Origin: Methylocystis silviterrae
Lineage (GTDB): Bacteria > Pseudomonadota > Alphaproteobacteria > Rhizobiales > Beijerinckiaceae
Direction of reading: 5' to 3'
DNA length: 64,000 nucleotides
Assembly (NCBI RefSeq): GCF_013350005.1
Contig: NZ_JABVWW010000001.1
Coordinates: 62,001-126,000, forward strand
The notes under the pieces are model-generated. The model was given only the letters and a program-made list of their open reading frames with translations, was not told where the DNA came from and searched no databases. The translations under genes and the position numbers were made by a program. This document shows positions 48,208 to 64,000 of the stretch, in pieces (position 1 is the stretch's first letter; every line of letters begins with the position of its first letter).

Positions 48208-48426
48208 AAACAGATACGCTTTCGCTTTACTGCCTTTTGCGGCGTGGACGGAGAATCGTTCGCAGAGGGCAATACCCTCGACGGACGAGAGAGAGCTGGA
48301 ATGTCGAGGCGAAAATTGAAGGCGCGGGCTGCAGTTGCGGCGTTTACTGTGGCTATTTCGCAACAGCGCAAGTCGAAAAATCGAGTTGACTAAAACATCA
48401 GCTTAACAGCTCAGCCGTGACGGCAT

Positions 48427-48455
48427 ACCGATATGTATACGGTTTACATATCGGT
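48427..48455. promoter_or_regulatory. Perfect inverted repeat, candidate operator upstream of the porin
   Basis: ACCGATATGTA (48427-48437) and TACATATCGGT (48445-48455) are exact reverse complements around TACGGTT. It lies 57 bases before the porin ATG. The lack of a U-tract and the AT-rich core favour a protein-binding site over a terminator. The regulator is unknown. Confidence 0.6.
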
Positions 48456-48511
48456 CCGTCGCTCAGAGCGCGCCAACCGGAGTTGGGTTAAGCGATACGG
48501 GACAAAAGTCG

Positions 48512-51061
48512 ATGGCGACAAGCAAAAACAGAAAGAAGTTAAGGTTAGCCGCATTTGGCGCCGTTGTCGGCGCTGCCCTTAGCGTTCCCGAAATAGCGGG
48601 CGCCGAAGACAAAGCGCCCTCTAAGGAAGTTTCGGGAAACGGGGGTCAGTCGGGGGGCGGCGCAAAAACCGCCGCGCCGGAAAAAGGGTCAGTGAAGACG
48701 AAGACCGATGGCACAGGTGTCGCTGCTCGTCCCGCGGCGCCAGCGGCGCCGCTGGTGAAGAAGAGCTACTACGTGCCGACCCGCGGCTATCGTTTGGAGC
48801 CGCAGCCCGATATTCCGCCTTATGTGCGCAATCTGGCTAAGACCTACAAGGAATTCGAAGGCGTCGACTGGCTGAACGTCGGTCTCGACTCGCGCGTGCG
48901 TTTTGAATATCGCAAGGACGACTATCGACCTTGGACGAACACGACGACCAATCCGCCGACGTCGCAGCGCAAATATTTTCCCAATTCGCTATGGCTGTCG
49001 CGCACACGGGCCTATCTGGGCGTGCAGAACATCCTCGATCCCTTTCGATTCGCCGTCGAATTTCAGGACTCGCGCGCCTACAACAGCATCTATGAATATC
49101 AGGGCCAGGAGATTAACCAGACGGAGCTTATTTCCGGCTATGGCGAACTTTATTTCAAGGACGCCTTCGGCAAGGACGATCTCGGCAATGATCGGCCGCT
49201 GACCCTGCGTGCCGGACGCTTCCACTTCGAGCTGCTCGACAGACGATTGATCGCCGAGAATGAGTTCCGCAACACGACGAACAACTTTGACGGCTTCCGG
49301 ATCAAAATCGGCAAGAAGGATAATGACTGGGACATTGACAGTTTCCTGATGCGGCCGGTTATTCGTTATCCATATCAGTTCGACCGACCTGATTGGCAGA
49401 ACTGGATCTACGGCGGCGTGTTCAGCATCCGGCGCTGGTCGGAATATGCGACGATCCAGCCTTATTTTCTAGGCCGTAAGCAATATGGAGATCCGCTCAA
49501 CGTCTCGAACGCGCTGAAGTTTCATCGCAACACTTATGCGCCCGGCATACGCGTCTATGGCGTGATCAACGACTTCGATTACGACTTCGACATCAACAAG
49601 CAGTTCGGCGAAACGGGCGAATTCCGCGATCTCGGCGCGCGTCGCAACGCCATTCAAACGACCGTCCAGCACGACGCCATCGCCTATGCATTCGAGGCTG
49701 GCTACACATTTTCGGAGCACCCGTGGAAGCCGCGGATCAGCGCCAACTACGCGTATGGCACAGGTAACAAGAGTCCATACGACAGCGCCAATCAGACCTT
49801 CGATATCTTCTATGGCTTCAACCAGCCGTTCTCACGCAACGACTATATCGCCTGGAATAACATCAAGGCGCCCAAGGCGCGCTTGGAATTTTCGCCTTTC
49901 AAAGATCTCCGGATCGATACGGCGTTCAGCGCCTATTGGCTGGCGAGCGCGGCGGCGGCCTGGGACCGCGCCAATCTCTTTGCGCCGCTCGGCAACAGAG
50001 GCACATTCATCGGCACGGAATATGATCTACGCATTCGCTACAAACTCAATCAGTTCATCAATTTGACGGCGAGCTACGCGCGGTTCTGGCCGGGCTCCTT
50101 TACCTCGAGCTTCGCGCCGCCGGTCGCGTTGCAGCCGTTCTTCCCGCAATCTTTTTCTGGACAGAGCACGACCACGAATGGTCTGACCGGGCGCCCGACC
50201 GACTTCTTCTATTTGGAAGTCTCAGCCAACGCCTTTGGCGACGGCAATCCGATCACAAAGCCGCCGGGCTCAGATTTTCTCGCTCTCTTCTCGCCTGAGG
50301 GGCCTCCCCCGCCGCCTGCGCCGCCGCCAAGCTGGTCTGACGTCTACGTCGGCCTCAATGGCGGTGGGGCGTGGTCGAGCCCGCGGTCGTTCGTACAGCC
50401 CTGGCCCTTCGGCGCAGCCGCCGCGAGTCCAGCCGTGGCCACAAGCGCGACGCCGATCGACCAGACGAACCATCTCGCCGGCTTCATCGGCGGTTTCCAG
50501 ATCGGCGCCAATTGGAAGTTCGCCGACAGCTTCTTGGCCGGCGCCGAGGCGGATTTGCACGGCGTTTCCGGCAACACCGACACGCGGTGGCAAGCGACCC
50601 TGGCGCAGGGGGGCGGCAATAGTTTCGTCACTTATGCGCAGCGCACCGCGACCCTCAATTATTTGGGAACGATCCGCGCCCGATTGGGCTATCTCGTCAC
50701 CCCGACGCTCGCCCTCTATGGCACGGGCGGCATGGCCTATGGCGGCGTCGTCTCCAACGCCGCGATCTTCACCCGAAGAATTGGCGGGACGAACCAAACG
50801 CTCGTCAATCCCGTCTATCAGGACAGCTTGATCGGCTGGACGGCGGGCGGCGGCGCTGAATGGATGTTCACGCCCGATTGGAGCGTCAAGGTCGATTATC
50901 TTCGCTACGATCTCGGCAATGCGACCGCTTCCGCCTTCGCGGCGCAGTCGAACGGCTTTTACGCTTACGGCGCGTCAAGCTCGACGCGCTTCAATGGCAA
51001 CCTCATCCACGCCGGCGTCAACCGCCACTTCGATCTCATCAGCATCGCAGAAGCGAAATAG
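48512..51061 (+). CDS. Two-domain outer-membrane porin: alginate-export-like barrel fused to an Omp25-like barrel
   Basis: An 849-residue protein. Residues 1-31 form a signal peptide (LAAFGAVVGAALSVPEIAGA). A disordered Gly/Ala/Pro stretch follows to ~85. Residues ~95-590 show alternating aromatic beta strands (SRVRFEYRKDDYRPW, RTRAYLGVQNILDPFRFAVEFQDSRAY, LTLRAGRFHFELLDRRLIAENEF) like the alginate export (AlgE) family of 18-strand channels. A Pro-rich hinge (PEGPPPPPAPPPSW) precedes a second barrel, ~600-849, with WSDVYVGLNGGGAW, IGGFQIGANWKF and WTAGGGAEWMFTPDWSVKVDYLRYDLG, typical of Omp25/RopB 8-strand barrels. The substrate is unknown; alginate should not be assumed. Confidence 0.82.
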   Translation: MATSKNRKKLRLAAFGAVVGAALSVPEIAGAEDKAPSKEVSGNGGQSGGGAKTAAPEKGSVKTKTDGTGVAARPAAPAAPLVKKSYYVPTRGYRLEPQPDIPPYVRNLAKTYKEFEGVDWLNVGLDSRVRFEYRKDDYRPWTNTTTNPPTSQRKYFPNSLWLSRTRAYLGVQNILDPFRFAVEFQDSRAYNSIYEYQGQEINQTELISGYGELYFKDAFGKDDLGNDRPLTLRAGRFHFELLDRRLIAENEFRNTTNNFDGFRIKIGKKDNDWDIDSFLMRPVIRYPYQFDRPDWQNWIYGGVFSIRRWSEYATIQPYFLGRKQYGDPLNVSNALKFHRNTYAPGIRVYGVINDFDYDFDINKQFGETGEFRDLGARRNAIQTTVQHDAIAYAFEAGYTFSEHPWKPRISANYAYGTGNKSPYDSANQTFDIFYGFNQPFSRNDYIAWNNIKAPKARLEFSPFKDLRIDTAFSAYWLASAAAAWDRANLFAPLGNRGTFIGTEYDLRIRYKLNQFINLTASYARFWPGSFTSSFAPPVALQPFFPQSFSGQSTTTNGLTGRPTDFFYLEVSANAFGDGNPITKPPGSDFLALFSPEGPPPPPAPPPSWSDVYVGLNGGGAWSSPRSFVQPWPFGAAAASPAVATSATPIDQTNHLAGFIGGFQIGANWKFADSFLAGAEADLHGVSGNTDTRWQATLAQGGGNSFVTYAQRTATLNYLGTIRARLGYLVTPTLALYGTGGMAYGGVVSNAAIFTRRIGGTNQTLVNPVYQDSLIGWTAGGGAEWMFTPDWSVKVDYLRYDLGNATASAFAAQSNGFYAYGASSSTRFNGNLIHAGVNRHFDLISIAEAK

Positions 51062-51491
51062 GCTCAAGCTGAATTGCGAGGCGCTGCGTCAGTTAAGGCA
51101 GCGCCAGTGCGCGACTGAAGTGCGCTTACAGGGCCGCTTCAGTCGCGCTCTCGCCTTCGATTTCGCTCGGCCGGGAACGGCGATCGCGCTGCACGGTTCA
51201 ACACTGCGCCAGCCATGGTGGAAGAAATGCGTCGCATCGGCGAAGAAGAACTTGCGCGCCCGGCAGTGTCGTTCTGGCGGTCCGGCATGACGCACGAGCT
51301 GTGCATTTTGTTCATACCTAGGAACATTTCTCAAGTTCCAGAGTTTTCCTTCAGCCTCTGACGGGCCTGTCCGCCGCCGCTGCGTGTCGGCGAAGATTGC
51401 GTGCGCGTCGCCAAGCGAAAGCCGAGCAAGCTGGCGCGGGTTGAAATTTTGTGTCGCCCCTCGCCACGTCTTTTGGTGAAAGGATTGACCG
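51062..51491. other. 430-base region between porin and hydrogenase operon
   Basis: It should hold the hydrogenase promoter. Two perfect stem-loops follow the porin stop: GGCGCTGC/GCAGCGCC (51080-51105) and GCGCGACTGAA/TTCAGTCGCGC (51109-51148); without a U-tract they may be weak terminators or mRNA-stabilising structures. I looked for a GG-N10-GC sigma-54 element and found no good match. A 48-codon open frame at 51215-51361 has no ribosome site and no recognisable content. Confidence 0.5.
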
Positions 51492-52577
51492 ATGGCTCCA
51501 GACCCCAATCCAGTTCCCAAAGGACAAGAGCGGCCTCCATCCACAATCGAAGAGCTTGATGTGCTCTGGCTTACGGCGGGGCTGAGTTGCGACGGCGACT
51601 CGGTCTCAATCACCGCTGCGAGCGAACCGAGCATAGAAGACGTCATTCTCGGAGCGATCCCAGGCCTACCGAAGGTGCGCTTGCACAATGCAGTGCTCTC
51701 CTACGAAGTGGGCGATGATTTCATGAAGGCCTTCCATCAAGGCGCGCGGGGCGAACTCGAAAACTTCGTCCTTGTGGTCGAAGGCTCCATCCCGAACGAG
51801 AAGCTCAGCGGCGATGGCTATTGGGCCGCGATCGGCACGGATGCGGCGACCGGACAGCCAATCAGAACCACCGAATGGATTGATCGTTTGGCGCCAAAGG
51901 CGCTCGCCGTAATCGGCGCCGGAACATGCGCGACATTTGGCGGCATCCACGCGATGAAAGGCAATCCAACCGGTTGCATGGGCCTTCAGGACTATCTTGG
52001 CGCCGAGTGGAAATCGAAGGCCGGGTTGCCGATCGTCAATGTCCCGGGCTGTCCTGTGCAGCCCGACAATTTCATGGAGACATTCCTCTACCTGCTGCGC
52101 CAGCTCGCTGGTCTGGCGCCGATGATTCCTGTCGACCGACACGGCCGCCCGCGCTGGCTGTTTGGTCCCACCGTTCATGAGGGATGTGACCGCGCCGCTT
52201 ATTACGAAGAGGCCGATTTCGCGCAAGAGTATGGCTCGCGGAAGTGCCTGGTGAAGATCGGCTGCTGGGGACCGGTTGTTCAGTGCAATGTGCCCAAGCG
52301 CGGTTGGATCGCGGGTCTCGGCGGCTGTCCAAATGTCGGCGGCATCTGCATCGGCTGCACTATGCCGGGCTTTCCCGACAAGTTCATGCCGTTCATGGAC
52401 GAACCGCCCGGCGCCCGCATCTCATCGGTTCTCATCAAGCCTTACGGCGTGCTGATCCGCAATTTGCGGAAAATCACCAATCACACGCTCAACAAGGAGC
52501 CGAAGTGGCGCAACAGGGAGCCGACCTACACCACCGGGTACGATCCTGATCAGCCGAACAAAACTCATCCACTCTAA
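51492..52577 (+). CDS. hhyS: [NiFe]-hydrogenase small subunit, group 1h (actinobacterial type)
   Basis: Electron-transfer subunit of 361 residues. It carries three iron-sulfur clusters that pass electrons from the active site. The N-terminus TIEELDVLWLTAGLSCDGDSVSITAASEPSIEDVI is diagnostic for group 1h. The proximal-cluster site reads Cys33-x-x-Asp36 instead of the usual CxxC, matching the three-Cys-one-Asp ligation described for the Ralstonia actinobacterial-type enzyme. Other cluster cysteines are in GTCATFGG, PGCPVQPD, HEGCDR, RKCLVKIGCWGPVVQCN and GGCPNVGGICIGCTMPGFP. There is no Tat signal or C-terminal anchor, so it is probably cytosolic or peripherally bound. It begins the long operon, 18 bases before hhyL. 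Confidence 0.95.
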   Translation: MAPDPNPVPKGQERPPSTIEELDVLWLTAGLSCDGDSVSITAASEPSIEDVILGAIPGLPKVRLHNAVLSYEVGDDFMKAFHQGARGELENFVLVVEGSIPNEKLSGDGYWAAIGTDAATGQPIRTTEWIDRLAPKALAVIGAGTCATFGGIHAMKGNPTGCMGLQDYLGAEWKSKAGLPIVNVPGCPVQPDNFMETFLYLLRQLAGLAPMIPVDRHGRPRWLFGPTVHEGCDRAAYYEEADFAQEYGSRKCLVKIGCWGPVVQCNVPKRGWIAGLGGCPNVGGICIGCTMPGFPDKFMPFMDEPPGARISSVLIKPYGVLIRNLRKITNHTLNKEPKWRNREPTYTTGYDPDQPNKTHPL

Positions 52578-52594
52578 AGTAAGGGACTGCGATC

Positions 52595-54415
52595 ATGGTC
52601 GACCTTGCAACGCGTCGCTCCGCGTCTCCGAGCCCCCATAAGGCGTCGCCAAATCTCGTCGAGATGAATTGGGATCCGATCACCCGGATCGTCGGCAGTC
52701 TCGGAATTTTCACCAAAATTGATTTCGAAAACCGGCAGGTCGCCGAATGTCACAGCACGTCGTCGATCTTTCGCGGCTACAGCATTTTCATGAAGGGCAA
52801 AGATCCCCGTGATTCCCACTTCATCACCAGTCGCATCTGCGGAATCTGCGGCGACAATCACGCGACGTGCTCCGTCTATGCGCAGAATATGGCCTATGGC
52901 ATTAAGCCGCCGCCCCTCGCCGATTGGATCATCAATCTGGGCGAAGCCGCGGAGTATATGTTCGACCACAACATCTTTCAGGACAATCTCGTCGGGGTCG
53001 ATTTCTGCGAGCAGATGGTCAAGGAAACCAATCCGAGCGTCTGGGTAAAGGCGCAACGGACCCCAGCGCGGAACTCGGACGCGCATGGCTATCGCACGAT
53101 CGCCGAGATCATGACCGCGCTCAATCCTTTTTCCGGCGAATTCTACCGTGAGACATTGATTGTAAGTCGCTACACGCGTGAGATGTTCAGCCTGATGGAG
53201 GGGCGCCATGTGCACCCCTCCACTCTATATCCTGGCGGCGTCGGCACCGTGCCGTCGAACCAGCTCTTCACCGAATATCTAACGCGACTCGTGCGCTACG
53301 CCGAGTTCATGAAAAAATGCGTGCCGCTGCACGATGATCTGTTCGACTTTTTTTACGAAGCGTTGCCCGGCTACGAGGAAGTCGGACGTCGACGAATTCT
53401 GCTGGGGTGCTGGGGCGCGTTTCAGGACCCGAACCATTGCGACTACAATTATAAGCATATGACCGACTGGGGTCGGAAGATGTTCGTCACCCCGGGCGTT
53501 GTCGTTGACGGCAAGCTTGTCACGACCGACCTCGTCGACATCAATTTGCAGATTCGTATCCTGCGCGGGCAGTCCTACTACGACGACTGGGACAATTGTG
53601 AAACTTTCGTCAAGACGGATCCGCTGGGCAATCCGGTCGACCAAAAGCACCCATGGAATCAGACGACGATTCCAAGACCGCAGAAGCGCGATTTCGACAA
53701 GAATTATTCCTGGGTGATGTGTCCGCGCTGGCTTGACAAGAGCAGCGGAGATCATCTGCCGCTCGACACCGGCGGCGGCGCCTTCGCGCGCCTATTCTCG
53801 ACGGCGCTGGCAGGGCTCGTCGACATGAACGGCTATGTCAAAGCCACGGGCGACAGCGTGAAGATCAATCTCCCCAAGACGGCGCTCAAGCCTGCAGTGG
53901 AGTTTGAATGGAAGGTGCCAAAGTGGAGCAATGCGATCGAACGCGATCGGGCGCGCACCTATTTTCAAGCCTACTGCGCCGCTGCCGCGTATTATTTCCT
54001 GGAACAAGCCTTCGCAGAAATTCAGGCGGGCCGCACAAAGACCTTTACGCCATTCGAGGTTCCGGATGAGGCGATCGGCTGTGGCTTCCACGAGGCGGTG
54101 CGCGGCGTGCTGTCGCACCATCTCGTCATAAAAGACAAGAAAATCGCCAATTATCATCCCTATCCGCCGACGCCATGGAACGCGACGCCGCGAGACGATT
54201 TCGGAACGCCGGGGCCTTACGAGGACGCAGTTCAGAACACGCCGATCTTCGAAGAGAATGGTCCGGACAAGTTTAAGGGCATCGACATCATGCGCGCGGT
54301 GCGCAGTTTCGATCCCTGTCTGCCATGCGGCGTGCATATGTATGTGGGCGGCGGCAAGACCGTTAAGACCACGCACTCGCCCATGTTCGGCGCCTCGCGA
54401 AAGCCGTCGCCATGA
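52595..54415 (+). CDS. hhyL: [NiFe]-hydrogenase large subunit, group 1h
   Basis: Catalytic subunit of 606 residues holding the NiFe(CN)2CO centre that oxidises H2. The N-terminal ligand motif is RICGICGDNHATCS (Cys82, Cys85) and the C-terminal one is DPCLPCGVHM (Cys575, Cys578). After His581 a 25-residue extension remains, to be removed by the maturation protease encoded downstream once nickel is in place. The ATG at 52595 has AAGGGA upstream. Known group 1h enzymes are oxygen tolerant and scavenge trace H2; that behaviour is expected, not shown here. Its stop overlaps the next gene as ATGA. Confidence 0.96.
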   Translation: MVDLATRRSASPSPHKASPNLVEMNWDPITRIVGSLGIFTKIDFENRQVAECHSTSSIFRGYSIFMKGKDPRDSHFITSRICGICGDNHATCSVYAQNMAYGIKPPPLADWIINLGEAAEYMFDHNIFQDNLVGVDFCEQMVKETNPSVWVKAQRTPARNSDAHGYRTIAEIMTALNPFSGEFYRETLIVSRYTREMFSLMEGRHVHPSTLYPGGVGTVPSNQLFTEYLTRLVRYAEFMKKCVPLHDDLFDFFYEALPGYEEVGRRRILLGCWGAFQDPNHCDYNYKHMTDWGRKMFVTPGVVVDGKLVTTDLVDINLQIRILRGQSYYDDWDNCETFVKTDPLGNPVDQKHPWNQTTIPRPQKRDFDKNYSWVMCPRWLDKSSGDHLPLDTGGGAFARLFSTALAGLVDMNGYVKATGDSVKINLPKTALKPAVEFEWKVPKWSNAIERDRARTYFQAYCAAAAYYFLEQAFAEIQAGRTKTFTPFEVPDEAIGCGFHEAVRGVLSHHLVIKDKKIANYHPYPPTPWNATPRDDFGTPGPYEDAVQNTPIFEENGPDKFKGIDIMRAVRSFDPCLPCGVHMYVGGGKTVKTTHSPMFGASRKPSP

Positions 54416-54933
54416 GCGGAGAAGCGCGCGAGACGGAGACGCTGGAGCAGTCACTGGCCCGGCTGGAAAGGCTGACGGCCGCGCTCGAGGGGATCGCAGA
54501 CGGGACGGGGCGGGAGGCGGCGCGTGAGTTGCTGGCGCTCGTGCTCGATTTGCACGCGCGCTCGCTGGCGCGACTCAGCACAATCATTGCAGCATCGGAC
54601 GATGGCGCCGCCTTACTCGAGACGATCGTCGAGGATCGGGCCCTTCGGGCAATATTGCTCCTCCACGGGCTACATCCGCATAGCGTGGAGGATCGTCTAC
54701 AGGATGTCGTCGCGCGCATGCAGCCGCAATGGAGCGCGCGCGGCCTCCATGTGAGCCTCATGAGCGCGAGTAAAGCCTTTGCAATGGTTCAGCTGCAAAG
54801 GAATGGCGTTGCTGAGCCTACCGACCAGTTGCGGCTGGAAATCGAGAACGCGCTCACCGACGCGGCGCCGGACCTCGACGATATTTTGATCGAAATGGAC
54901 ATGACAGCCTTTTACGTCGAAACCGCCGCCTAG
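54412..54933 (+). CDS. NifU-like domain protein lacking the CxxC motif, hydrogenase accessory
   Basis: A 173-residue soluble protein. Residues ~1-75 are helical (LEQSLARLERLTAALEGIADGTGREAARELLALVLDLH). Residues ~80-173 follow the outline of a NifU C-terminal domain: LHGLHPHSVEDRLQDVVARMQPQWSARGLHVSLMSASKAFAMVQLQ, then LRLEIENALTDAAPDLDDILIEMD. In true NifU domains the segment before the last helix carries GSCxxCPSS; here it is RNGVAEPTDQLR without any cysteine, so iron-sulfur scaffolding by that site is ruled out. The same position in actinobacterial group 1h operons is held by NifU-like genes. The role is unknown; it may bind the hydrogenase or act as a degenerate scaffold. Confidence 0.75.
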   Translation: MSGEARETETLEQSLARLERLTAALEGIADGTGREAARELLALVLDLHARSLARLSTIIAASDDGAALLETIVEDRALRAILLLHGLHPHSVEDRLQDVVARMQPQWSARGLHVSLMSASKAFAMVQLQRNGVAEPTDQLRLEIENALTDAAPDLDDILIEMDMTAFYVETAA

Positions 54934-54953
54934 CCACAAAGAGGCGCGAGAGC

Positions 54954-55577
54954 ATGGAAAGAATAGAATCGGGGAATTGGGCGTCTCGGCTGCGGCGCTT
55001 CGCGCGCGCGACGGAAGAAGAGCATTGCGAGTTCTGCTCGAAGGCCATCAATTCCCGGCACGCGCATTTGGTTGAGCGCGCGACGCGAAAGTTCTTTTGC
55101 GCTTGTCCCCAATGTGCGTTCCTCTTGGGCGGGGGAGAGCGTTTTGCCGCCTTGCGCGCACGTGCCGATGCGCTGCACGACATCGATCTGAGCGACGTCG
55201 AATGGGAGGGTTTTCGCATCCCAATTGATCTCGCATTCGTGTTCCACAGCACGCCGGCGCAGGGTCCGGTGGCGATCTATCCAGGTCCGGCCGGAGCGAT
55301 CGAGTCTCCTTTTGCCGCCGATGGCTGGTCGCGACTGATCGCGGCCAATCCGATGTTGGCCGACCTTGATCCGGACGTTGAGGCGTTGCTCGTCAATCGA
55401 ATGAATGGCGCACGGGAATACTATCTTGTTTCGATTGATCGCTGCTATGCGCTCATTGGGCTGATCCGAAGGCATTGGCGCGGATTGTCCGGCGGCGAAG
55501 AAGTCTGGGAGTCTGTTCGCGACTATTTTTGCACGCTGCGAGACGACGTCGAGACGAAGGACAGGGTTCATGGTTGA
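54954..55577 (+). CDS. DUF5947 family protein, hydrogenase accessory with zinc-ribbon-like cysteines
   Basis: A 207-residue soluble protein found with group 1h hydrogenases. The N-terminal third has two Cys pairs, EHCEFCSKAI and FFCACPQCAFLL, that could bind zinc or an iron centre. The rest reads WEGFRIPIDLAFVFHSTPAQGPVAIYPGPAGAIES and then LDPDVEALLVNRMNGAREYYLVSIDRCYALIGLIRRHWRGLSGGEEVW, which matches my memory of DUF5947. Function is unknown. It overlaps the next gene by eight bases. Confidence 0.78.
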   Translation: MERIESGNWASRLRRFARATEEEHCEFCSKAINSRHAHLVERATRKFFCACPQCAFLLGGGERFAALRARADALHDIDLSDVEWEGFRIPIDLAFVFHSTPAQGPVAIYPGPAGAIESPFAADGWSRLIAANPMLADLDPDVEALLVNRMNGAREYYLVSIDRCYALIGLIRRHWRGLSGGEEVWESVRDYFCTLRDDVETKDRVHG

Positions 55578-56217
55578 TCTCGACTTTCGCATCGAAGACG
55601 TCAAAGTCGAGAAATATTCGGCGGCGCCGCTGCTGCTGTTTGCGTTGCATGTCGTAAACAAGACGCCGGATCTAGCCATTCTCAACGTGATGTTGAACTG
55701 CCAGATTCGCATCCAGCCTGCGCTGAGACGTTATGACGGCGATGAGCACGATCGGCTTTCCGATCTCTTTGGTCATCCGTCGCGCTGGGGCGAGACGATG
55801 CGGAGTTTCCTTTGGACGCACGCGAGCGTTTCCGTTCCCGCCGTCAACGCTGAGCGCAGGGTCGATCTGCCGGCGCCTTGCAGCTATGACTTCAACATTG
55901 CAGCGACGAAATATTTTCATGGCCTGGAGCAGGGCGACGTTCCGCTCAATTTTCTGTTCAGCGGCTCGATTTTTTACCGCGACAGCGAAGGCAGGCTGCA
56001 GATCGAGCAGGTCGCTTGGAGCAATGAATGTGCGTATCGTCTGCCCTTAAGCGTATGGCGCGCGATGATGGAGCATTACTATCCGCAGAGCATGTGGCTC
56101 TGCCTGCATCGCGACGCTTTTGACGACCTGGACCGGTACCGGCGCCGGCAAGGACTTCCGACATTTGAACGCGCCTTGCAGGCGCTACTCGAAGCCAACG
56201 CGGCGGAGGCGACATGA
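55570..56217 (+). CDS. DUF6084 family protein, hydrogenase accessory
   Basis: A 215-residue soluble protein, mixed beta-rich (VDLDFRIEDVKVEKYSAAPLLLFALHVVN, YFHGLEQGDVPLNFLFSGSIFYRDSEGRLQIEQVAWSNECAYRLPLSVWRAMMEHYYPQSMWLCLHRDAFDDLDRYRR). The order DUF5947-DUF6084 next to hhySL is the actinobacterial arrangement. No catalytic motif is visible. Its start lies inside the upstream gene and its stop overlaps the next start as ATGA. Confidence 0.78.
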   Translation: MVDLDFRIEDVKVEKYSAAPLLLFALHVVNKTPDLAILNVMLNCQIRIQPALRRYDGDEHDRLSDLFGHPSRWGETMRSFLWTHASVSVPAVNAERRVDLPAPCSYDFNIAATKYFHGLEQGDVPLNFLFSGSIFYRDSEGRLQIEQVAWSNECAYRLPLSVWRAMMEHYYPQSMWLCLHRDAFDDLDRYRRRQGLPTFERALQALLEANAAEAT

Positions 56218-57572
56218 AACTCGACTCCATCAGAGCAATCGCCAATGCCGTTCTTTACGAGGGCTACATCCTTTATCCCTATCGGCCATCGTCAATAAAG
56301 AATCGTCAGCGCTGGACGATCGGGGGCGTCTTTCCGAAGGCGTTCGATCAACAAGGCGACGCCTCTCGCATGGAGACGCAAGTTCTCTTGCGGGGCGGAG
56401 AGCAGGCGGCGTTCAACGTCCATTTTCGATTCCTGCAGGTCATGACGCGCGAGGTCGGACAGTTGGCGATGCTGGCGCAAGAGCTTCCGGAAGAGGGCGA
56501 GCCGGCGCTGACGCGCGTTCCGAGCTTCAATGTCGACGGTCGGGAGTTGCTGGCCTGGGAGGAGGCGATCGAACGGGAGATCGCCTTAGGGCCGCTGCGG
56601 CCGGCAGATATTCAAGAGGTAGCGACTGTCTTGTCGTTCCGCTTCGAAGGCGCGCGCGAAATCGAGCCGGTGCGCGCCCAGGACGGCTGCATCGCCGCCG
56701 TTCTCATTCGTACGTCGCATGAGATTCAGGGCGTCATCGGTGCGAAGGCGCAGAGGCTCGCGTCGGACGTGTGGAAGCTGACGATAGGAATCGAGAACGT
56801 CACGCCGTTTGCGGGCGCGGATCGTGAGGAACGCGCAGCAGCGCAACTTCGCGCCTTTGCCTCAACGCATGCAATCCTCACGGTTGAAGATGGCGCGTTC
56901 GTCTCGTTGCTCGATCCTCCGGACGATCTGCGGGAAGCTGCGACGCAGTGCCGAAATGTCGGCGCTTTCCCGGTGCTGGTCGGGGAACCAGACAATAGCG
57001 CCATGCTCGCTTCGCCGATCATCCTCTATGATCATCCGGCGATCGCGCCGGAAAGTCCCGGCGACCTCTTCGACGGCACTGAGATCGACGAAATCTTGAC
57101 GCTTCGCATCCTCGCGATGACCGACGCCGAAAAGCGCGAGATGGCGTCCGTGGACGCCCGTGCGCGCGCGCTTCTGGAGCGCACGCATGCTTTGTCCGCC
57201 GAGGACATGGCGCGACTTCATGGCGTCATGCGCGATCACCGGTCTCAGGCCAGTCCTATTGAACCGGCGCCGATGGGCGGGGATCAAGAGAAGCCTCGCC
57301 TCGTCTCGCTGCTCGAGAGCGGACGCAGCCTATGCGTCGGAGCCCGCGTGCGACTCCGCCCAAAATCGGGCGGCGACATCATGGATATCGCGCTCAAAGA
57401 CAAGATTGCGGTCGTCGAGGCGATTGAGCGCGATTTCGAGGACCGGATCCATGTCGCGGTGACGTTGATTGACGATCCCGGCCGGGATCTCGGCGCGGCG
57501 GGCTTTCCTGGACATCGCTTCTTTTTCAGCCAGGAGGAGATCGAGCCGATTGCGGCGGGAGATGGGCCATGA
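56214..57572 (+). CDS. Uncharacterised 452-residue group 1h hydrogenase accessory protein
   Basis: A soluble 452-residue protein. The N-terminus (SIRAIANAVLYEGYILYPYRPSSIKNRQRWTIGGVFPKAF) and central part (LTIGIENVTPFAGADREER, DNSAMLASPIILYDHPAIAPESPGDLFDGTEIDEILTLRIL) match proteins next to hydrogenases of this class as I recall them. The last ~90 residues have a KOW/SH3-like pattern (CVGARVRLRPKSGGDIMDIALKDKIAVVEAIERDFEDRIHVAVTL, ending HRFFFSQEEIEPI). No cofactor or catalytic motif and no membrane helix is visible. Function unknown; the position between DUF6084 and the protease suggests a scaffold or assembly role. Confidence 0.7.
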   Translation: MKLDSIRAIANAVLYEGYILYPYRPSSIKNRQRWTIGGVFPKAFDQQGDASRMETQVLLRGGEQAAFNVHFRFLQVMTREVGQLAMLAQELPEEGEPALTRVPSFNVDGRELLAWEEAIEREIALGPLRPADIQEVATVLSFRFEGAREIEPVRAQDGCIAAVLIRTSHEIQGVIGAKAQRLASDVWKLTIGIENVTPFAGADREERAAAQLRAFASTHAILTVEDGAFVSLLDPPDDLREAATQCRNVGAFPVLVGEPDNSAMLASPIILYDHPAIAPESPGDLFDGTEIDEILTLRILAMTDAEKREMASVDARARALLERTHALSAEDMARLHGVMRDHRSQASPIEPAPMGGDQEKPRLVSLLESGRSLCVGARVRLRPKSGGDIMDIALKDKIAVVEAIERDFEDRIHVAVTLIDDPGRDLGAAGFPGHRFFFSQEEIEPIAAGDGP

Positions 57573-58057
57573 CCTCCATTCTCGTCGCCTGCGTCGGCAA
57601 CATCTTTAGCGGCGATGACGCCTTCGGAGTCGAGGTGGCGCGCCGGCTCTCACGGGTCACGCTCCCGGACGGGGTACGCGTGATCGATTTCGGCATTCGC
57701 GGAATAGATCTCACCTACGCGCTGATGGATGGCTATGACGCCGTGATTCTCGTCGACGCGGCGCAGCGGGGGCATGCGCCGGGCGTCGTCTCAGTAGTCG
57801 AGCCGGACCTAATCGAGGCGGGAGACTCCACACCCGAGGATCTGGCGCTTTCGCCGCATGAGCTCGATCCGGCGAAAGTTCTTCGCCTGGCGTCGGCGCT
57901 CGGCGGAAGTTGCCGGCGCGTGCTCCTGGTTGCGTGCGAACCGCTGACGCTTGGCGGCGAGGAAGGCGTGATGGGTTTGAGCGAGCCTGTCACGGCAGCG
58001 GTGGCCGTCGGCGCCGAAACGGTAGAAGAGCTGATCGATGGAATGATGGCGGCGTAA
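57569..58057 (+). CDS. Hydrogenase maturation protease
   Basis: A 162-residue HyaD/HybD-type endopeptidase that removes the C-terminal extension of the large subunit after nickel insertion. The N-terminus SILVACVGNIFSGDDAFGVEVARRL has the family GN(x)xxGDD(G/A)xG motif and its acidic Ni-sensing residue. VIDFGIRGIDLTYALMDGYDAVILVDA and the SPHELDPAKVLRLA histidine region complete the site. The ATG overlaps the upstream stop as ATGA. Confidence 0.93.
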   Translation: MTSILVACVGNIFSGDDAFGVEVARRLSRVTLPDGVRVIDFGIRGIDLTYALMDGYDAVILVDAAQRGHAPGVVSVVEPDLIEAGDSTPEDLALSPHELDPAKVLRLASALGGSCRRVLLVACEPLTLGGEEGVMGLSEPVTAAVAVGAETVEELIDGMMAA

Positions 58058-58106
58058 CTTGGCGCAATTCGCGCTCGCGCCGCGTATCGGAAAAGGGAGA
58101 AACGTC

Positions 58107-58214
58107 ATGAGCGGATGGGAGATTACAGGAATCGTCCTGGGGATTATTATCCTCCTGTTGCTGGTCATGAACGCGAAGGATCTTTGGCGCTATATCAAAA
58201 TCAGCAACATGTGA
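58107..58214 (+). CDS. 35-residue single-helix microprotein (DUF6893-like)
   Basis: A short gene starting ATG at 58107 with GGGAG seven bases upstream and ending TGA at 58212. The product begins MSGWEITGIVLGIIILLLLV, one transmembrane helix at residues ~6-21, then MNAKDLWRYIKISNM. Tiny one-helix proteins of this form (DUF6893, as I recall) are found in actinobacterial group 1h operons at the same place. A role in anchoring the hydrogenase or passing electrons to the membrane is possible but unproven. Confidence 0.78.
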   Translation: MSGWEITGIVLGIIILLLLVMNAKDLWRYIKISNM

Positions 58215-58230
58215 GGCTGACAGGACAATC

Positions 58231-60627
58231 ATGAGTTTTGCCGCCGAGCCATCGCAGGCGCTCGAATTTCGGGTGCGCGGCCGCGTGCAGGGCGTCGGCT
58301 TTCGTCCGACCGTCTGGCGCATGGCGCGCGAACTTGGGCTTGCCGGCGAGGTTCTTAATGACGGCGAGGGCGTATTGGTGCGCGTCAGCGGCGACCAGTC
58401 GCGGATCGCTGCGCTGCTTCGACGAATCGAACGGAGCTCGCCGCCGCTGGCGCATATCGACAGCATCGAAAGGCGGCGCTACAGCGGCCGACTGCCACAG
58501 GAGTTCCGTATCGCCGACAGCATCGGCGGACCCGCACGCACCCAGGTCGCGCCCGATGCCGCGCTCTGCGGCGCATGCGCAGCGGAGCTGCGCGATCCCG
58601 GCCAGCGCCGCTATCGCTATCCGTTCACGAATTGCACCCAATGCGGACCGCGCCTCAGCATTGTGACGGCCATTCCCTACGACCGCGCGACGACGACGAT
58701 GGCGCCCTTCGCCCTGTGTGCGGCGTGTGAGGCGGAATATCGCAATCCGAACGATCGCCGCTTCCATGCCGAAGCGGTGGCCTGCCCGTCCTGCGGGCCG
58801 ACTGCATCGCTCGTTGCCTTCGGGCAAGCGGGAGCGCCGCGCGACGGCGGCCCCGACGCGGTAAAGATTGCGGCTGGGCTTATCGCGCGCGGCGATATCA
58901 TCGCCGTCAAGGGACTCGGCGGCTATCATCTCGCGTGTGACGCGACCAGCCCCGAGGCCGTCGCGCGCCTGCGGCTGCTGAAGCGTCGTGACGCAAAGCC
59001 CTTTGCGCTGATGGCGCGCGATCTCGATGTCATGAGGCGCTACTGCGTAATCGACGCCGTCGAGGAACGCGAACTCACAAGCGTCAAGGCGCCGATCGTG
59101 CTGCTGCGCGCAACAGGTCCGGAGCGCCTGCCCGAGGCCGTCGCGCCCGGACTCGACACGCTCGGCTTTATGTTGCCGACGACGCCGCTGCATCTGCTAC
59201 TCGTCGATCAGTTCGAACAACCACTCGTGATGACGAGCGGCAATATTTCGGACGAACCCGCCGTTGTTGACGACGCGGAGGCGTACCGACAGCTTGCCGA
59301 AATCGCCTCCTTCGCATGGACGCATAATCGCGCCATCTCCAATCGCGTCGACGACTCGGTCGTGCGGGTCATGGCCGGGCGATCGCGCGTCCTTCGCCGC
59401 GCCCGCGGCTACGCGCCCGCGCCGCTACGATTGCCGAACGGCTTCGAGAATGCGCCCGACCTGTTGGCGATGGGCGGAGAGCTGAAGGCGACCTTCTGCC
59501 TGGTCAAGGACGGTCAGGCGATCCTGTCGCAGCATCAGGGCGATCTCGCGAACGCGGCGACGTTAGATGATTACAAAAAGAATCTGGCGCTCTATCGGAG
59601 CCTGTTCGATCACGCGCCGTCGGCGATCGTCGTCGACCGGCATCCTGAATATCTGTCGTCGAAACTCGGACGCGCAGAGGCCGACACACGGGCCTTGCCG
59701 TTGATTGAGGCTCAACACCATCACGCCCATATAGCCGCCTGTCTTGCCGAGAACGGGCGGTCGCTCGATGCGCCGCTAGCGCTCGGCGTCGTGCTCGATG
59801 GATTGGGCTTTGGCGACGACGGCGCGATATGGGGCGGCGAGTTCCTGCTCGCCGACTATCTCGGCTACGAGCGACTGGCGCGTTTGAAGCCGGTCGCCAT
59901 GCCCGGCGGCGCGCAGGCGGTGCGCGAACCGTGGCGAAACCTCTATGCGCATCTTAAGGCCGCGGGCGCGTTCGATGCGAGGCCGTCCGCGGCCGGCAAT
60001 TGGAGCGCCTTGAACGGCAAACCGCTTGCGACGATCGACCGGATGATCGCCCTAGGCCTCAATTCGCCGTTAGCCTCCTCGTGCGGACGCCTGTTCGACG
60101 CGGTCGCCGCCGCGCTCGGCGTCTGCGCCGATCGTCAGGCCTACGAAGGCGAAGCCGGGGCGCGACTTGAGGCGCTTGCGGCGGCGGCGCCAAACGAGAC
60201 GCGCGGCTATGCGCTTAGGATTTCCGAGTCCGAGCTTGTCGACATCGATGCGGCGCCGATGTGGCGCGCAATTCTCGATGATTTGCGGCAGGGCGTTTCG
60301 GCGCAGACCATCGCGCGCCGTTTTCACCTCGGTCTGGCGCAGTCAATCACTGAAGTCGCCGTGCGGCTGGCGGCTGCGCGACGCTTTGAAACGGTGGCGC
60401 TCTCAGGAGGCTGCTTTCAGAACCGGCTGCTATTTGAAAGCGTCCATGGCGGATTGTGCGAGGCGGGGTTCGTCGTGCTCACCCATGCAGATGCGCCGGC
60501 GAATGATGGCGGGCTCTCGCTGGGTCAGGCCGCCATCGGCGCCGCGCATCTGATGAGAACCGACATGACAAGAGATGGAAAGGACGGCGCATGTGCCTCG
60601 GCATCCCCGGCTGTATCGTTCGCATAG
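58231..60627 (+). CDS. hypF: Carbamoyltransferase HypF
   Basis: HypF, 798 residues, uses carbamoyl phosphate to load a carbamoyl group on the HypE C-terminal cysteine, the source of the cyanide ligands. The acylphosphatase domain is residues ~9-95 (FRVRGRVQGVGFRPTVWRMA). Four CxxC zinc-finger pairs follow (CGAC, CTQC, CAAC, CPSC) at ~110-190. The YrdC-like domain is ~205-390 and the Kae1-like domain, with the metal site in QHHHAHIAACLAE near residue 495, is ~400-798. All parts are complete. It overlaps hypC by 37 bases. Confidence 0.97.
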   Translation: MSFAAEPSQALEFRVRGRVQGVGFRPTVWRMARELGLAGEVLNDGEGVLVRVSGDQSRIAALLRRIERSSPPLAHIDSIERRRYSGRLPQEFRIADSIGGPARTQVAPDAALCGACAAELRDPGQRRYRYPFTNCTQCGPRLSIVTAIPYDRATTTMAPFALCAACEAEYRNPNDRRFHAEAVACPSCGPTASLVAFGQAGAPRDGGPDAVKIAAGLIARGDIIAVKGLGGYHLACDATSPEAVARLRLLKRRDAKPFALMARDLDVMRRYCVIDAVEERELTSVKAPIVLLRATGPERLPEAVAPGLDTLGFMLPTTPLHLLLVDQFEQPLVMTSGNISDEPAVVDDAEAYRQLAEIASFAWTHNRAISNRVDDSVVRVMAGRSRVLRRARGYAPAPLRLPNGFENAPDLLAMGGELKATFCLVKDGQAILSQHQGDLANAATLDDYKKNLALYRSLFDHAPSAIVVDRHPEYLSSKLGRAEADTRALPLIEAQHHHAHIAACLAENGRSLDAPLALGVVLDGLGFGDDGAIWGGEFLLADYLGYERLARLKPVAMPGGAQAVREPWRNLYAHLKAAGAFDARPSAAGNWSALNGKPLATIDRMIALGLNSPLASSCGRLFDAVAAALGVCADRQAYEGEAGARLEALAAAAPNETRGYALRISESELVDIDAAPMWRAILDDLRQGVSAQTIARRFHLGLAQSITEVAVRLAAARRFETVALSGGCFQNRLLFESVHGGLCEAGFVVLTHADAPANDGGLSLGQAAIGAAHLMRTDMTRDGKDGACASASPAVSFA

Positions 60628-60887
60628 ACAATGCCGACGATCTCGTGGCGACCGTTGACGTGAGCGGGGTGCGTCGTCAGATCAACATCAGCTGCATCGT
60701 GGATGAAGCGCATCCTGTGGACTCCTGCGTCGGCGACTGGGTTCTCGTCCATGTCGGTTTCGCGATGAGCCGGATCAACGAGGCGGAGGCGGCGGAGACG
60801 CTCAGATTGCTGCAAGAGCTTGGCGAACTCCAAGCCGAACTTGAGACTATGCAAACGCTCACCGACGCAGTCGCGGCGCAGGAATAG
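60591..60887 (+). CDS. hypC: Hydrogenase assembly chaperone HypC
   Basis: HypC, 98 residues, chaperones the Fe(CN)2CO unit with HypD and delivers it to the large subunit. It begins MCLGIPGCIVRIDN, with the essential N-terminal cysteine exposed after Met removal, and the OB-like core CVGDWVLVHVGFAMSRINEAEAAETLRLLQEL follows. Its ATG lies 37 bases inside hypF. The tail is slightly longer than the E. coli protein (90 residues). Confidence 0.95.
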   Translation: MCLGIPGCIVRIDNADDLVATVDVSGVRRQINISCIVDEAHPVDSCVGDWVLVHVGFAMSRINEAEAAETLRLLQELGELQAELETMQTLTDAVAAQE

Positions 60888-60892
60888 GGATC

Positions 60893-61582
60893 ATGACCAG
60901 CAAGAGCGCACTGGAGGTCCTTTATCCGTTCCTGCATGGCAAAGAGCAGGATCCTGCCGCCGTCGATGCTGGGTTGCTGCACTCCATTGAAGAGAAAGCG
61001 CGCGAGTCGCGTGAGACCAATGCGAGTTTCTTCGCCGAGCAGGCGCCGGTCCTGCTCGACGCGGCGAAGGCGCTTGCCGCCGTTTATCGCCGCGGCGGCC
61101 GGATGTTCACCATGGGCAATGGCGGCTCGAGTTGTGACGCCTCGCATGTCGCCGTCGAGTTCCTCCATCCGATCACCGCCGGTCGGCCGGCGCTTGCAGC
61201 GATAAACCTCACCGCCGACGTGGCGATGACGTCCGCCGTGGGCAATGACGTGGGCTTCGAGCACATTTTCGTGCGCCAGCTTATCGCTCATGGCCGTGCG
61301 GGAGACGGGCTTATCGGCCTCTCCACCAGCGGCAATTCGGCAAATCTGATCGCCGCCTTCGTGAAGGCGAGGGAAATGGGTCTGACGACCATTGGCTTTA
61401 GCGGCGGCGACGGCGGCAAGATGGCGTCCGGCGTCTGCGATCATTGTGTTGTCGTGCCCACGACGTCTGTCCATCGCGTTCAGGAGTGCCACGTCGCCGC
61501 CTATCACATTCTGTGGGACCTCGTTCACACGCTGCTCGCCGACGATCGCGGCTCGGCCATAAGCAAGGACGTCGCGGCATGA
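60893..61582 (+). CDS. SIS-domain isomerase (GmhA-like) in the hyp operon
   Basis: A 229-residue SIS sugar-phosphate isomerase resembling phosphoheptose isomerase GmhA. Key pieces are FTMGNGGSSCDASHVAVEFLHP, NLTADVAMTSAVGNDVGFEHIFVRQL, LIGLSTSGNSANLIAAFVKAREMG and VVVPTTSVHRVQECHVAAYHILWDLVH, the phosphate and catalytic-His/Glu positions of the GmhA type. No heptose/LPS genes are nearby. It sits between hypC and hypD with gaps of 5 and -4 bases, so its product is surely made together with the maturation proteins. Its role in hydrogenase assembly is unknown. Confidence 0.85.
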   Translation: MTSKSALEVLYPFLHGKEQDPAAVDAGLLHSIEEKARESRETNASFFAEQAPVLLDAAKALAAVYRRGGRMFTMGNGGSSCDASHVAVEFLHPITAGRPALAAINLTADVAMTSAVGNDVGFEHIFVRQLIAHGRAGDGLIGLSTSGNSANLIAAFVKAREMGLTTIGFSGGDGGKMASGVCDHCVVVPTTSVHRVQECHVAAYHILWDLVHTLLADDRGSAISKDVAA

Positions 61583-62721
61583 GATATGTCGACGAATTTC
61601 GCGATCGGGCGAAGGCGGATGTCCTGGTCAAGGAGATCGAGCGGCTGCTCGCGCGAATCGGGCGCGATGAAAGTCGACCGCTACAGATCATGGAAGTCTG
61701 TGGCGGGCACACGCATTCGATTTTTCGCTACGGCGTCGAAGGCATGCTGCCGAAATCCATCGAGCTGGTGCATGGACCGGGATGTCCCGTTTGCGTGCTG
61801 CCGATGGGACGCGTCGACGATTGCGTCGCCATCGCCGAGCGTCCGGAGGTGATTTTCACCACCTTCGGCGACGCCATGCGCGTGCCGGGCTCACGCAAGA
61901 GTCTGTTGCAGGCGAAGGCTGACGGCTGTGACGTGCGCATGGTCTATTCGCCAATGGATGCGCTGGCGCTCGCGCGTAAAAATCCCGCGCGCGAGGTCGT
62001 TTTCTTCGGCATCGGCTTCGAGACGACGATGCCGTCGACGGCGTTGACCGTGCTGCAGGCGGAGCGCGAAGGGATCAAGAATTTTTCGATCTTCTGCAAT
62101 CACATCACCATCGTTCCAACGATCAAAGCGATTCTCGACAGCCCGGATCTACGCCTCGACGGATTTCTGGGACCGGGCCATGTGTCCATGGTGATCGGCG
62201 ATGCGCCCTATGAATTTATCGCGCGTTACTACAAGAAGCCGATGGTGATCGCGGGATTCGAGCCTCTCGACATTTTGCAGTCGATCTGGATGTTGCTGAG
62301 GCAAATCGACGAGGGACGCTGCGAGATCGAAAATCAATATGCGCGCGTCGCGCCAGCAGGGGGCAACGCCGTTGCGCTGCAGGCGGTTGCGCAGGTCTAT
62401 GAACTGCGCGAATTCTTCGAATGGCGCGGGCTCGGCTCCATTGATCACTCGGGGGTCAAAGTGCGCGACGCCTATGCGGGCTTTGACGCCGAGCGGAAAT
62501 ACGCAGTGCCCAATGCAAGGATCGCCGATCCCAAGGCATGCCAGTGCGGCGAAGTCCTCAAGGGCGTCATCAAGCCCTGGCAATGCAAGGTTTTTGGCCG
62601 CGCCTGCACGCCGGAGACGCCGCTCGGCGCGCTGATGGTGTCCTCCGAGGGCGCTTGCGCCGCCTATTACCAATATGGCGGCATAAAGCGGGACCGCGAC
62701 GACGAGGCGAGCGCCGCATGA
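61579..62721 (+). CDS. hypD: Hydrogenase maturation scaffold HypD
   Basis: HypD, 380 residues, an iron-sulfur protein on which iron receives its CO and CN ligands with HypC. Signature motifs are IMEVCGGHTHSIFRYGV, the HGPGCPVCVLPM redox pair, FFGIGFETTMPSTA, NHITIVPTIKAIL and FLGPGHVSMVIG. The 4Fe-4S cysteines are in KACQCGEVLKG, WQCKVFGRACTPE and EGACAAYYQY. The ATG at 61579 overlaps the SIS gene stop as ATGA; a frame running back to 61444 is not real coding. Confidence 0.97.
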   Translation: MRYVDEFRDRAKADVLVKEIERLLARIGRDESRPLQIMEVCGGHTHSIFRYGVEGMLPKSIELVHGPGCPVCVLPMGRVDDCVAIAERPEVIFTTFGDAMRVPGSRKSLLQAKADGCDVRMVYSPMDALALARKNPAREVVFFGIGFETTMPSTALTVLQAEREGIKNFSIFCNHITIVPTIKAILDSPDLRLDGFLGPGHVSMVIGDAPYEFIARYYKKPMVIAGFEPLDILQSIWMLLRQIDEGRCEIENQYARVAPAGGNAVALQAVAQVYELREFFEWRGLGSIDHSGVKVRDAYAGFDAERKYAVPNARIADPKACQCGEVLKGVIKPWQCKVFGRACTPETPLGALMVSSEGACAAYYQYGGIKRDRDDEASAA

Positions 62722-63785
62722 ACATGGTCTCCTTCCCGCCCCGGCGTTCGCGCGGCAAGGTGCATGTGCCGACCGTCACGCTTGCGCATGGCGGCGGCGG
62801 CAAGGCGATGAAGGATTTGATCGACGACGTCTTTGTCGCGGCGTTCGACAATCCACTGCTGGCGTCGCTCGACGATTCTGCGCGGATGGATCTCTTGGAC
62901 CTCGCCCAATATGGCGACCGGCTGGCCTTCACGACGGATTCGTTCGTCGTCGACCCGTTGGTCTTCCCCGGCGGCGACATCGGCAGGCTTGCGGTCTGCG
63001 GCACAGTTAACGATCTCGCCGTTGGCGGCGCGCTTCCGCTCTATCTCTCTTGCGCAGTCATTATCGAAGAAGGCGTTTCCGTCGATTTTCTCCGCCAAAT
63101 TGCCAAGTCTATGGCGGCGACGGCGCAGGAGGCCGGGGTGAAGATCGTCACCGGCGACACCAAGGTCGTGAACAAGGGCGCCTGCGACCAGATGTTCATC
63201 ACCACGACCGGCGTTGGCGTCGTCGCCGCAGGCGTCGAGCTTGGCGCACATCGCGCGAGACTGGGCGACGCGGTGCTCGTCAACGGGTTACTCGGCGATC
63301 ATGGCGCGGCAATTCTTGGCGCGCGCGGCGATATGGCGTTGCAGTCGCCGATCGAGAGCGATTGCGCGCCGCTGCAGGGTCTTATCGCAAGCCTGCTCAA
63401 TGCGGCGCCGAATATCCGATTCATGCGCGATCCGACGCGCGGCGGCGTGGCGACTGTGCTCAATGAAATCGCCGAAGCCGCACAGGTCGCCATCGAAATT
63501 GACGAGGCCGTTACGCCGCTGCGCGATGAGGTTCGTGGCTTTTGTGAAATTCTCGGCCTCGATCCGCTCTATCTCGCCAATGAAGGCAAGATTGTCGCAA
63601 TTATCCCGCCCGACGAGGCCGAACAGGCGCTCGAGGCCATGCGTGCGCATCCGCTGGGCCGACAGGCGGCCATCATCGGCAGTGTCGTCGCGGGCGAGCC
63701 GGGTCGCGTCACCATGCGCACGATTTTCGGTGGCCGGCGCATCGTCGACATGCTGGTCGGCGAGCAACTACCGCGCATCTGCTAA
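62718..63785 (+). CDS. hypE: Hydrogenase maturation dehydratase HypE
   Basis: HypE, 355 residues, an AIR-synthetase-fold ATPase that dehydrates the S-carboxamide on its last cysteine to thiocyanate and donates CN to the HypC-HypD complex. Motifs include VTLAHGGGGKAMKDLIDDVF, FTTDSFVVDPLVFPGGDIGRLAVCGTVNDLAVGGA, IVTGDTKVV, DPTRGGVATVLNEIA and the invariant C-terminus PRIC. The ATG overlaps the hypD stop as ATGA. Confidence 0.97.
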   Translation: MNMVSFPPRRSRGKVHVPTVTLAHGGGGKAMKDLIDDVFVAAFDNPLLASLDDSARMDLLDLAQYGDRLAFTTDSFVVDPLVFPGGDIGRLAVCGTVNDLAVGGALPLYLSCAVIIEEGVSVDFLRQIAKSMAATAQEAGVKIVTGDTKVVNKGACDQMFITTTGVGVVAAGVELGAHRARLGDAVLVNGLLGDHGAAILGARGDMALQSPIESDCAPLQGLIASLLNAAPNIRFMRDPTRGGVATVLNEIAEAAQVAIEIDEAVTPLRDEVRGFCEILGLDPLYLANEGKIVAIIPPDEAEQALEAMRAHPLGRQAAIIGSVVAGEPGRVTMRTIFGGRRIVDMLVGEQLPRIC

Positions 63786-63795
63786 AGGAGCCGAG

Positions 63796-64000
63796 GTGCA
63801 CGAACTCTCGATCGTTTGCAGCATCGTCGAATTGGCGTCGCAGGCCGCGGAAGGGCGTCGCGTGCGCCGGGTGACGCTCGAGATCGGCACATTGTCGGGC
63901 GTCGAGCCGCAGGCCGTCGCCTTCTGTTTTCCTGAAGTCGCCCGAGGCACGCCGGTTGAAGACGCGACGCTGGACATCCGCGAAGTCGACGCCGAGGCGC
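63796..64000 (+). CDS. hypA: Hydrogenase nickel incorporation protein HypA, truncated by window edge
   Basis: The first 68 residues of HypA, which with HypB inserts nickel. It starts at a GTG (63796) with AAAGGAG five bases upstream and reads MHELSIVCSIVELASQAAEGRRVRRVTLEIGTLSGVEPQAVAFCF, with the nickel-binding MHE at the N-terminus. The zinc-site cysteines and hypB, expected next, lie outside the window. Confidence 0.95.
   Translation, partial: MHELSIVCSIVELASQAAEGRRVRRVTLEIGTLSGVEPQAVAFCFPEVARGTPVEDATLDIREVDAEA

Follow-up and report, generated by a model that had tools for sequence, protein, structure and literature searches.

A group 1h hydrogenase operon in Methylocystis silviterrae

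The stretch of DNA analysed here (64,000 nucleotides of the 3.85-Mb genome of Methylocystis silviterrae, G000:C11:62001-126000; hereafter the window) carries a chromosomal uptake hydrogenase operon of group 1h, the actinobacterial type of [NiFe]-hydrogenase, and within it an unannotated gene for a micropeptide of 35 residues (Table 1). The initial annotation had described a complete group 1h operon, and every gene that it named is present at its place and in its orientation. The start at 51492 was confirmed; the end was not at the window edge (64000), which the operon crosses with hypA and hypB to reach 65075 on the same contig. The unit is tightly packed, as had been said: overlaps occur at seven of its eleven junctions, of 37 bases at one of them and of 4-8 bases at the other six. 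The widest gap, 173 bases between the protease gene and hypF, contains the 35-codon gene, which was overlooked when the operon was said to hold only known group 1h partners.

HhyL carries both cysteine motifs of the NiFe site (L1 and L2, Table 1), and for HhyL as well as HhyS the best relative of solved structure is, by far, 5aa5 (HofG/HofK of Cupriavidus necator), with 1160 bits for HhyL where the runner-up reaches 163. In a tree of ten large subunits, the five group 1h sequences (window, HofG, and the Streptomyces, Mycobacterium and M. parvus copies) form a clade with a support of 100/100, separate from the 1d, 2b and 3b-like sequences, and HhyL of the window is thus placed inside group 1h as first proposed. 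HhyS has CDGD at the position where NiFeSe enzymes have CTGC; the proximal cluster of group 1h enzymes is of the 3 Cys + Asp type (PMC8498564), and this Asp would be that of CDGD. The operon had also been set apart from the standard proteobacterial hup/hyp cluster, and rightly so: group 1d clusters are characterised by a small subunit exported by twin-arginine translocation (Tat) and by a b-type cytochrome, whereas no Tat motif was seen by eye in HhyS and no cytochrome gene is among the genes of the operon.

HhyL is 99% identical to the copies of Methylocystis rosea SV97, Methylocystis sp. L43 and a Methylocystis metagenome-assembled genome, 94% to that of Methylocystis B8, 82.7% to that of C. 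necator and 73-77% to actinobacterial copies. Within the genus, 18 of 39 genomes have it (16 of 30 when only those of good quality are counted), and in a sample of the family 13 of 248. Group 1h enzymes have already been described from alphaproteobacterial methanotrophs (PMC12319191) and from Methylocystis (PMC12566213, PMC7716213); the operon in Methylocystis is therefore known, and it is the micropeptide gene that is new. The operons of M. bryophila, M. aurea and M. acidophilus, related methanotrophs with the same enzyme group, are treated in section 3.1 of PMC12319191, which mentions neither the micropeptide nor the loss scars described below.

A micropeptide gene between the protease gene and hypF

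The micropeptide (MSGWEITGIVLGIIILLLLVMNAKDLWRYIKISNM) is predicted to have one N-terminal transmembrane helix, followed by a conserved C-terminal tail of the pattern [PKR]-[DE]-x-x-R-Y-[LI]-[KR]-[IM]-x-x-M-COOH. A profile built from 26 seeds (matches were counted at 13 bits or more if they ended at the stop codon) found it in 83 of the 88 group 1h loci whose stretch includes the protease gene and in 85 of 100 loci overall, from six phyla, the seeds being counted among the 85. Of the five loci left over, L088 carries a weaker copy (14.4 bits, whole-sequence score), L062 has it after hypB, and in the genome of L094 it adjoins a protease gene on another contig (for the remaining two see the last section). 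Arg at -8 and Tyr at -7 are each kept in 83 of the 85 copies, Asp or Glu at -11 in 82 and the terminal Met in all 85, with the reservation that the profile itself favours such tail ends. The gene mostly lies directly after the protease gene, and in Mycobacterium, Nocardia, Paractinoplanes and Streptomyces gelaticus between orf6 and the protease gene. A longer form of 65-70 residues with the same tail follows the protease gene in seven loci of Acidobacteriota (L036, L037, L040, L041, L043, L056, L058), and L162 has a second copy after hypB. The C. necator operon carries the open reading frame as well, and it is missing from the (incomplete) gene table of that operon.

The micropeptide is near-universal in the group 1h loci fetched and co-occurs with HhyL. 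In the 248 family genomes, the 13 full-length matches (E<=1e-12) fall in exactly the 13 HhyL-positive genomes, and the next-best match (E 0.015) is part of a larger frame; none was found below that value in the 235 HhyL-negative genomes, an absence that is independent of the fact that five of the 13 family micropeptides were in the search alignment. In a sample of the phylum it was found (E<=1e-5) in one of 398 genomes, the window's own, and since HhyL was left out of that search the result speaks to the rarity of the micropeptide only. A tblastn search of plasmids gave no match for two of three queries and C. necator alone for the third; this search was too insensitive, as it missed the M. 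parvus plasmid loci that carry the micropeptide. The micropeptide accompanies the group 1h hydrogenase in six phyla and, in the sets searched, is rarely met elsewhere.

The gene is under purifying selection. Its ratio of non-synonymous to synonymous differences per site (pN/pS) is 0.12-0.37 against 14 close relatives, and 0.38-0.62 against seven more distant ones in which synonymous sites are near saturation. Fourteen rosea-type sequences are identical to the window at 0.88, 0.95 and 0.74 of the first, second and third codon positions with no gaps in the frame, as compared to 0.72, with gaps, in the spacer upstream, and GGAG precedes the ATG in 14 of 14.

Members of the Pfam family PF21833 (DUF6893; function unassigned) are likewise short, have a single helix and end in the same tail. 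The window copy scores 21.1 bits against it (E 3e-4), 3.5 bits under the cut-off of 24.6, and copies elsewhere score 47.3 (Streptomyces), 38.6 (Chloroflexota) and 38.9 bits (Verrucomicrobiota). Window-type micropeptides and DUF6893 are found by one profile, mostly at the same place of the operon. In the Streptomyces order, 69 of 197 genomes have one DUF6893 match each (E<=0.001), and in the best 30 of these 69 the copy lies beside orf6 and the protease gene (30 of 30 loci). A search of 40 genomes (40 of the 80 contigs with HhyL matches, the places being compared with the loci by eye) gave a match at E<=0.1 in 38, some of them weak or partial, and 34 were above the cut-off; in 14 named control genomes DUF6893 was never above it. 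A literature search found no paper that names DUF6893 or its link to Hhy, many subscription papers lying outside the search.

Table 1. The group 1h operon, listed in gene order with positions in the window
Gene	Product	Position	Strand	Remark
hhyS	group 1h small subunit	51492..52577	+	proximal-cluster motif CDGD instead of CxGC
hhyL	group 1h large subunit	52595..54415	+	L1 RICGICGDNH, L2 DPCLPCGVH
orf3	truncated HhyE/NifU-like protein, 173 aa	54412..54933	+	zero cysteines
DUF5947	DUF5947 protein	54954..55577	+	cysteines conserved in the 5 copies aligned
DUF6084	DUF6084 protein	55570..56217	+	
orf6	protein of 452 aa	56214..57572	+	in group 1h operons of six phyla
protease	hydrogenase maturation protease (HycI/HupD superfamily)	57569..58057	+	
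micropeptide	DUF6893-like, single-helix (predicted), 35 aa	58107..58214	+	unannotated; Shine-Dalgarno-like stretch upstream (GGGAGAAA)
hypF	HypF	58231..60627	+	
hypC	HypC	60591..60887	+	
SIS	SIS-domain (GmhA-like) protein	60893..61582	+	
hypD	HypD	61579..62721	+	
hypE	HypE	62715..63785	+	
hypA	HypA	63796..64134	+	window holds 63796..64000; rest on same contig, locus L009
hypB	HypB	64134-65075		beyond window, same contig, locus L009

Accessory genes, gene order and loss scars

The accessory genes orf3 to orf6 together span 54412-57572. For orf6, no family match was found in Pfam. The Mycobacterium and Nocardia copies aligned with orf3 are full-length HhyE proteins with CxxC motifs, whereas orf3 of the window is truncated and, having no cysteine at all, lacks the CxxC of the NifU domain and the two C-terminal CxxC by which HhyE is recognised. 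The NifU-site CxxC was found in none of 36 orf3 frames from 35 Pseudomonadota loci, and it is missing in five of the ten actinobacterial rows of the alignment (35 rows chosen from 67 usable). M. smegmatis HhyE is reported to carry this CxxC, and the protein to be needed for H2 oxidation (PMC6883350); as the motif is absent from many orf3 copies, an iron-sulfur relay cannot be the general role of orf3/HhyE. Truncated HhyE forms (PMC6883350) and the absence of the NifU domain from the M. bryophila coding sequence (PMC12319191) have been pointed out before. In a genome of the same family (L139, G203:C252), orf3 is split over two reading frames by a frameshift or a sequencing error; a CxxC that seemed to make this locus an exception was set aside, since it is encoded in the wrong frame and no CxxC occurs in the in-frame part.

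The structural genes occur in loci of all six phyla, mostly in the same order but in a different one in Verrucomicrobiota. Streptomyces and mycobacterial group 1h operons share with the window the structural half, hhyS-hhyL-orf3-DUF5947-DUF6084-orf6-protease plus the peptide, and to this extent the gene order is actinobacterial-like as the initial annotation claimed. The hyp half is not: these operons have hypA-hypB-hypF-hypC-hypD-hypE or variants of it and no SIS gene was found in them, whereas C. necator H16 has the same 14 named genes as the window in identical order (HofKG, PDB 5aa5) on the megaplasmid pHG1, near integrases. In M. parvus the operon is rearranged and lies on a plasmid. Among loci with at least four hyp genes, the order hypF-hypC-SIS-hypD-hypE was found in 25 of 27 from Pseudomonadota and in none of 44 others, and the SIS gene in 27/27 Pseudomonadota, 14/14 Acidobacteriota, 6/6 Verrucomicrobiota, 5/5 Chloroflexota, 1/4 Planctomycetota and 0/15 Actinomycetota. 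In the HhyL tree (100 rows, i.e., 105 loci minus five duplicates), Pseudomonadota form one clade with a support of 97 in the Shimodaira-Hasegawa-like approximate likelihood ratio test (SH-aLRT), and the window sits in the Methylocystis clade; with SH-aLRT as the only support and no outgroup, this tree does not settle the direction of transfer between phyla.

The initial annotation took the operon to suggest transfer of the entire unit, for which its gene order would point to actinobacteria, and a capacity for the use of atmospheric H2. Taken together this appears quite improbable to us, and the transfer part was not supported. The identity of HhyL to actinobacterial copies would fit it, and hhyL and the DUF6084 gene have a guanine plus cytosine (G+C) content of 57%, as foreign genes can have (the mean of 1.5-kb pieces of the window is 63.5%, more than 2 standard deviations higher). 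However, HhyL belongs to the Pseudomonadota clade, and a grouping of the 14 rosea-type Methylocystis rows with 18 actinobacterial rows was rejected by the approximately unbiased (AU) test (p-AU 3e-6); an actinobacterial origin of the operon is disfavoured by the tree, by this test and by the order of the hyp genes. The low G+C of the two genes weighs against a purely local history of the operon (61.7% overall, 63.4% in the rest of the window), although base composition is no proof of an old transfer and does not rule one out. On atmospheric or high-affinity H2 uptake, the published evidence from relatives is mixed: oxidation of atmospheric H2 has been reported for Methylocapsa gorgona, which has a group 1h enzyme (PMC7827875), and Methylacidiphilum fumariolicum oxidised subatmospheric H2 (PMC7174314), whereas no H2 use was seen in Methylocystis B8, with 1h and 3b enzymes only (PMC7716213), and the C. 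necator enzyme has a Michaelis constant of 3.6 uM in a strain that does not oxidise atmospheric H2 (PMC7174314).

An empty site was not found, as the flanking porin and transglutaminase-like genes do not lie side by side in HhyL-negative relatives, the contigs of which are fragmented; hyp genes with scars of a lost hydrogenase were met in its place. Three such relatives (L145 in G027, L153 in G032 and L154 in G028) keep hyp genes and have lost the genes from hhyS to the protease; all three have a broken SIS gene, and two a decayed micropeptide. In G027, the porin gene is followed by a remnant of hhyL of about 200 bases, the final codons of the protease gene, an intact micropeptide gene and then the hyp genes, with open frames for hypF, C, D, E, A and B and a SIS gene cut to its last 67 codons. 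G032 and G028 have both breakpoints of one larger deletion in common, and they keep hypF, C, D and E and DNA matching hypA-hypB next to broken SIS genes and decayed micropeptides (tails EEPYRYNKIGHM and EEPYRSNKIAHM, respectively). Because their breakpoints are shared and the scar of G027 differs, at least two deletion events took place; G028 weighs less here, since its genome is 9% contaminated and has additional hyp sets.

The only other [NiFe] large subunit above the Pfam cut-off in G027 and G032 is 3b-like (judged by the match pattern), and the only hypF above the cut-off is that of the operon; the relatives G009 and G019, which have a 1h plus a 3b-like enzyme, also have a single hypF above it. 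As the hyp genes were kept after the loss of hhySL, they probably serve a second hydrogenase too, and the hyp set of the operon may thus also mature the 3b enzyme. The parallel breakage of the SIS gene suggests that it is a Hhy-specific accessory gene in this lineage. The micropeptide, too, might be kept only for Hhy, which is less certain than for the SIS gene.

Several further observations concern the surroundings of the operon and other genomes. Directly upstream of hhyS (48512-51061) lies a gene for an 849-residue fusion of an alginate-export-like barrel and an outer-membrane-protein beta-barrel domain, full-length relatives of which vary in copy number and place across Methylocystis genomes, and a variable region beside the operon (approximately 43280-51470) is absent from the relative L129 and partly from L150. 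Elsewhere in the genome there are two PmoA/AmoA-family genes, which together with the HhyL identities mark the host as a Methylocystis methanotroph, a 3b-like hydrogenase (contig C26) and, on contig C33, a 1d-type uptake hydrogenase with a b-type cytochrome, also a 2b-like pair, and a gene that we take to be HupK-like. The HhyL match of another genome of the family (L140, G250:C1:239778-241538) has one in-frame TAG, either a pseudogene or a sequencing error; in the acidobacterial locus L064, a second hhyS-hhyL pair adjoins the first in opposite orientation; and in public records (L013-L016) HhyS is mislabelled 'hydrogenase expression protein HypE'.

Possible role of the micropeptide

The reading that we favour, with about even confidence, is that of a group 1h operon with a dedicated micropeptide that tethers the cytoplasmic Hhy at the membrane near the quinone. 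HhyS and HhyL would make up the H2-oxidising core, cytoplasmic to judge from the lack of a visible Tat motif in HhyS and probably insensitive to oxygen, hypFCDEAB and the protease would build and trim its NiFe site, and the electrons of H2 would pass to the respiratory chain. The tail of the micropeptide, most likely cytoplasmic, would bind Hhy and hold the soluble enzyme at the membrane; in 23 of the 26 seeds the tail is more positive than the N-terminus, which fits an N-out, C-in tether. Hyd-1h was reported to be at the membrane although it has neither a transmembrane helix nor a signal, its partner being called unknown (PMC7174314), and no anchor subunit was detected in the Hhy operon (PMC6883350). 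A role similar to the one proposed here is played in the group 2a hydrogenase Huc by HucM, which links a soluble hydrogenase to the membrane, although HucM is a scaffold of 188 residues with a C-terminal part that forms a coiled-coil tube (PMC10017518), as compared to the 35 residues here. That the DUF6893-like micropeptide is an obligate subunit of group 1h, a tether that sets the high apparent H2 affinity in at least six phyla, we propose tentatively and with some doubt.

Several points speak against these proposals. The strongest objection is that Hyd-1h of C. necator was reported as cytoplasmic and of low affinity (PMC7174314) though its operon has the micropeptide. L059 and L084 are without a micropeptide match in the stretch examined, the weakest of the 85 matches are marginal (L078 with 13.2, L073 with 14.6 and L072 with 14.8 bits), and the window copy stays below the curated cut-off of PF21833. 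Two acidobacterial genomes have an unlinked DUF6893-like copy (L159 near 10126 and L160 near 10541), with none of the profiled operon genes within 17-18 kb, and in G027 the micropeptide is intact though hhySL is lost. This last case, together with the position of the gene, which mostly adjoins the protease and hyp genes and not hhySL, would also suit an ordinary group 1h operon in which the micropeptide is a small assembly or stability factor and tethers nothing. We consider this unlikely, because in G032 and G028 the tail is degraded while hypF, C, D and E persist, and because none of the 235 HhyL-negative genomes in the family sample had the micropeptide at E<0.015. For a frame so short inside 173 bases, one might also think of a leader peptide, a regulatory peptide or the by-product of some untranslated spacer element. 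We regard this as very improbable: the frame is conserved at the protein level across phyla, it lies in the middle of the operon, and Rfam gave no match at the gathering score for 50900-58400.

The loss scars suggest a division of the operon into Hhy-specific genes (structural and accessory genes, SIS) and shared ones (hypFCDEAB). Soil bacteria are believed to take up atmospheric H2 largely by way of group 1h hydrogenases, regarded as a main route. If the micropeptide is indeed a tether, it would fill the place of the unknown partner of group 1h enzymes and could explain their loss of affinity on purification, and its gene makes the question of the membrane link accessible to a one-gene deletion test.

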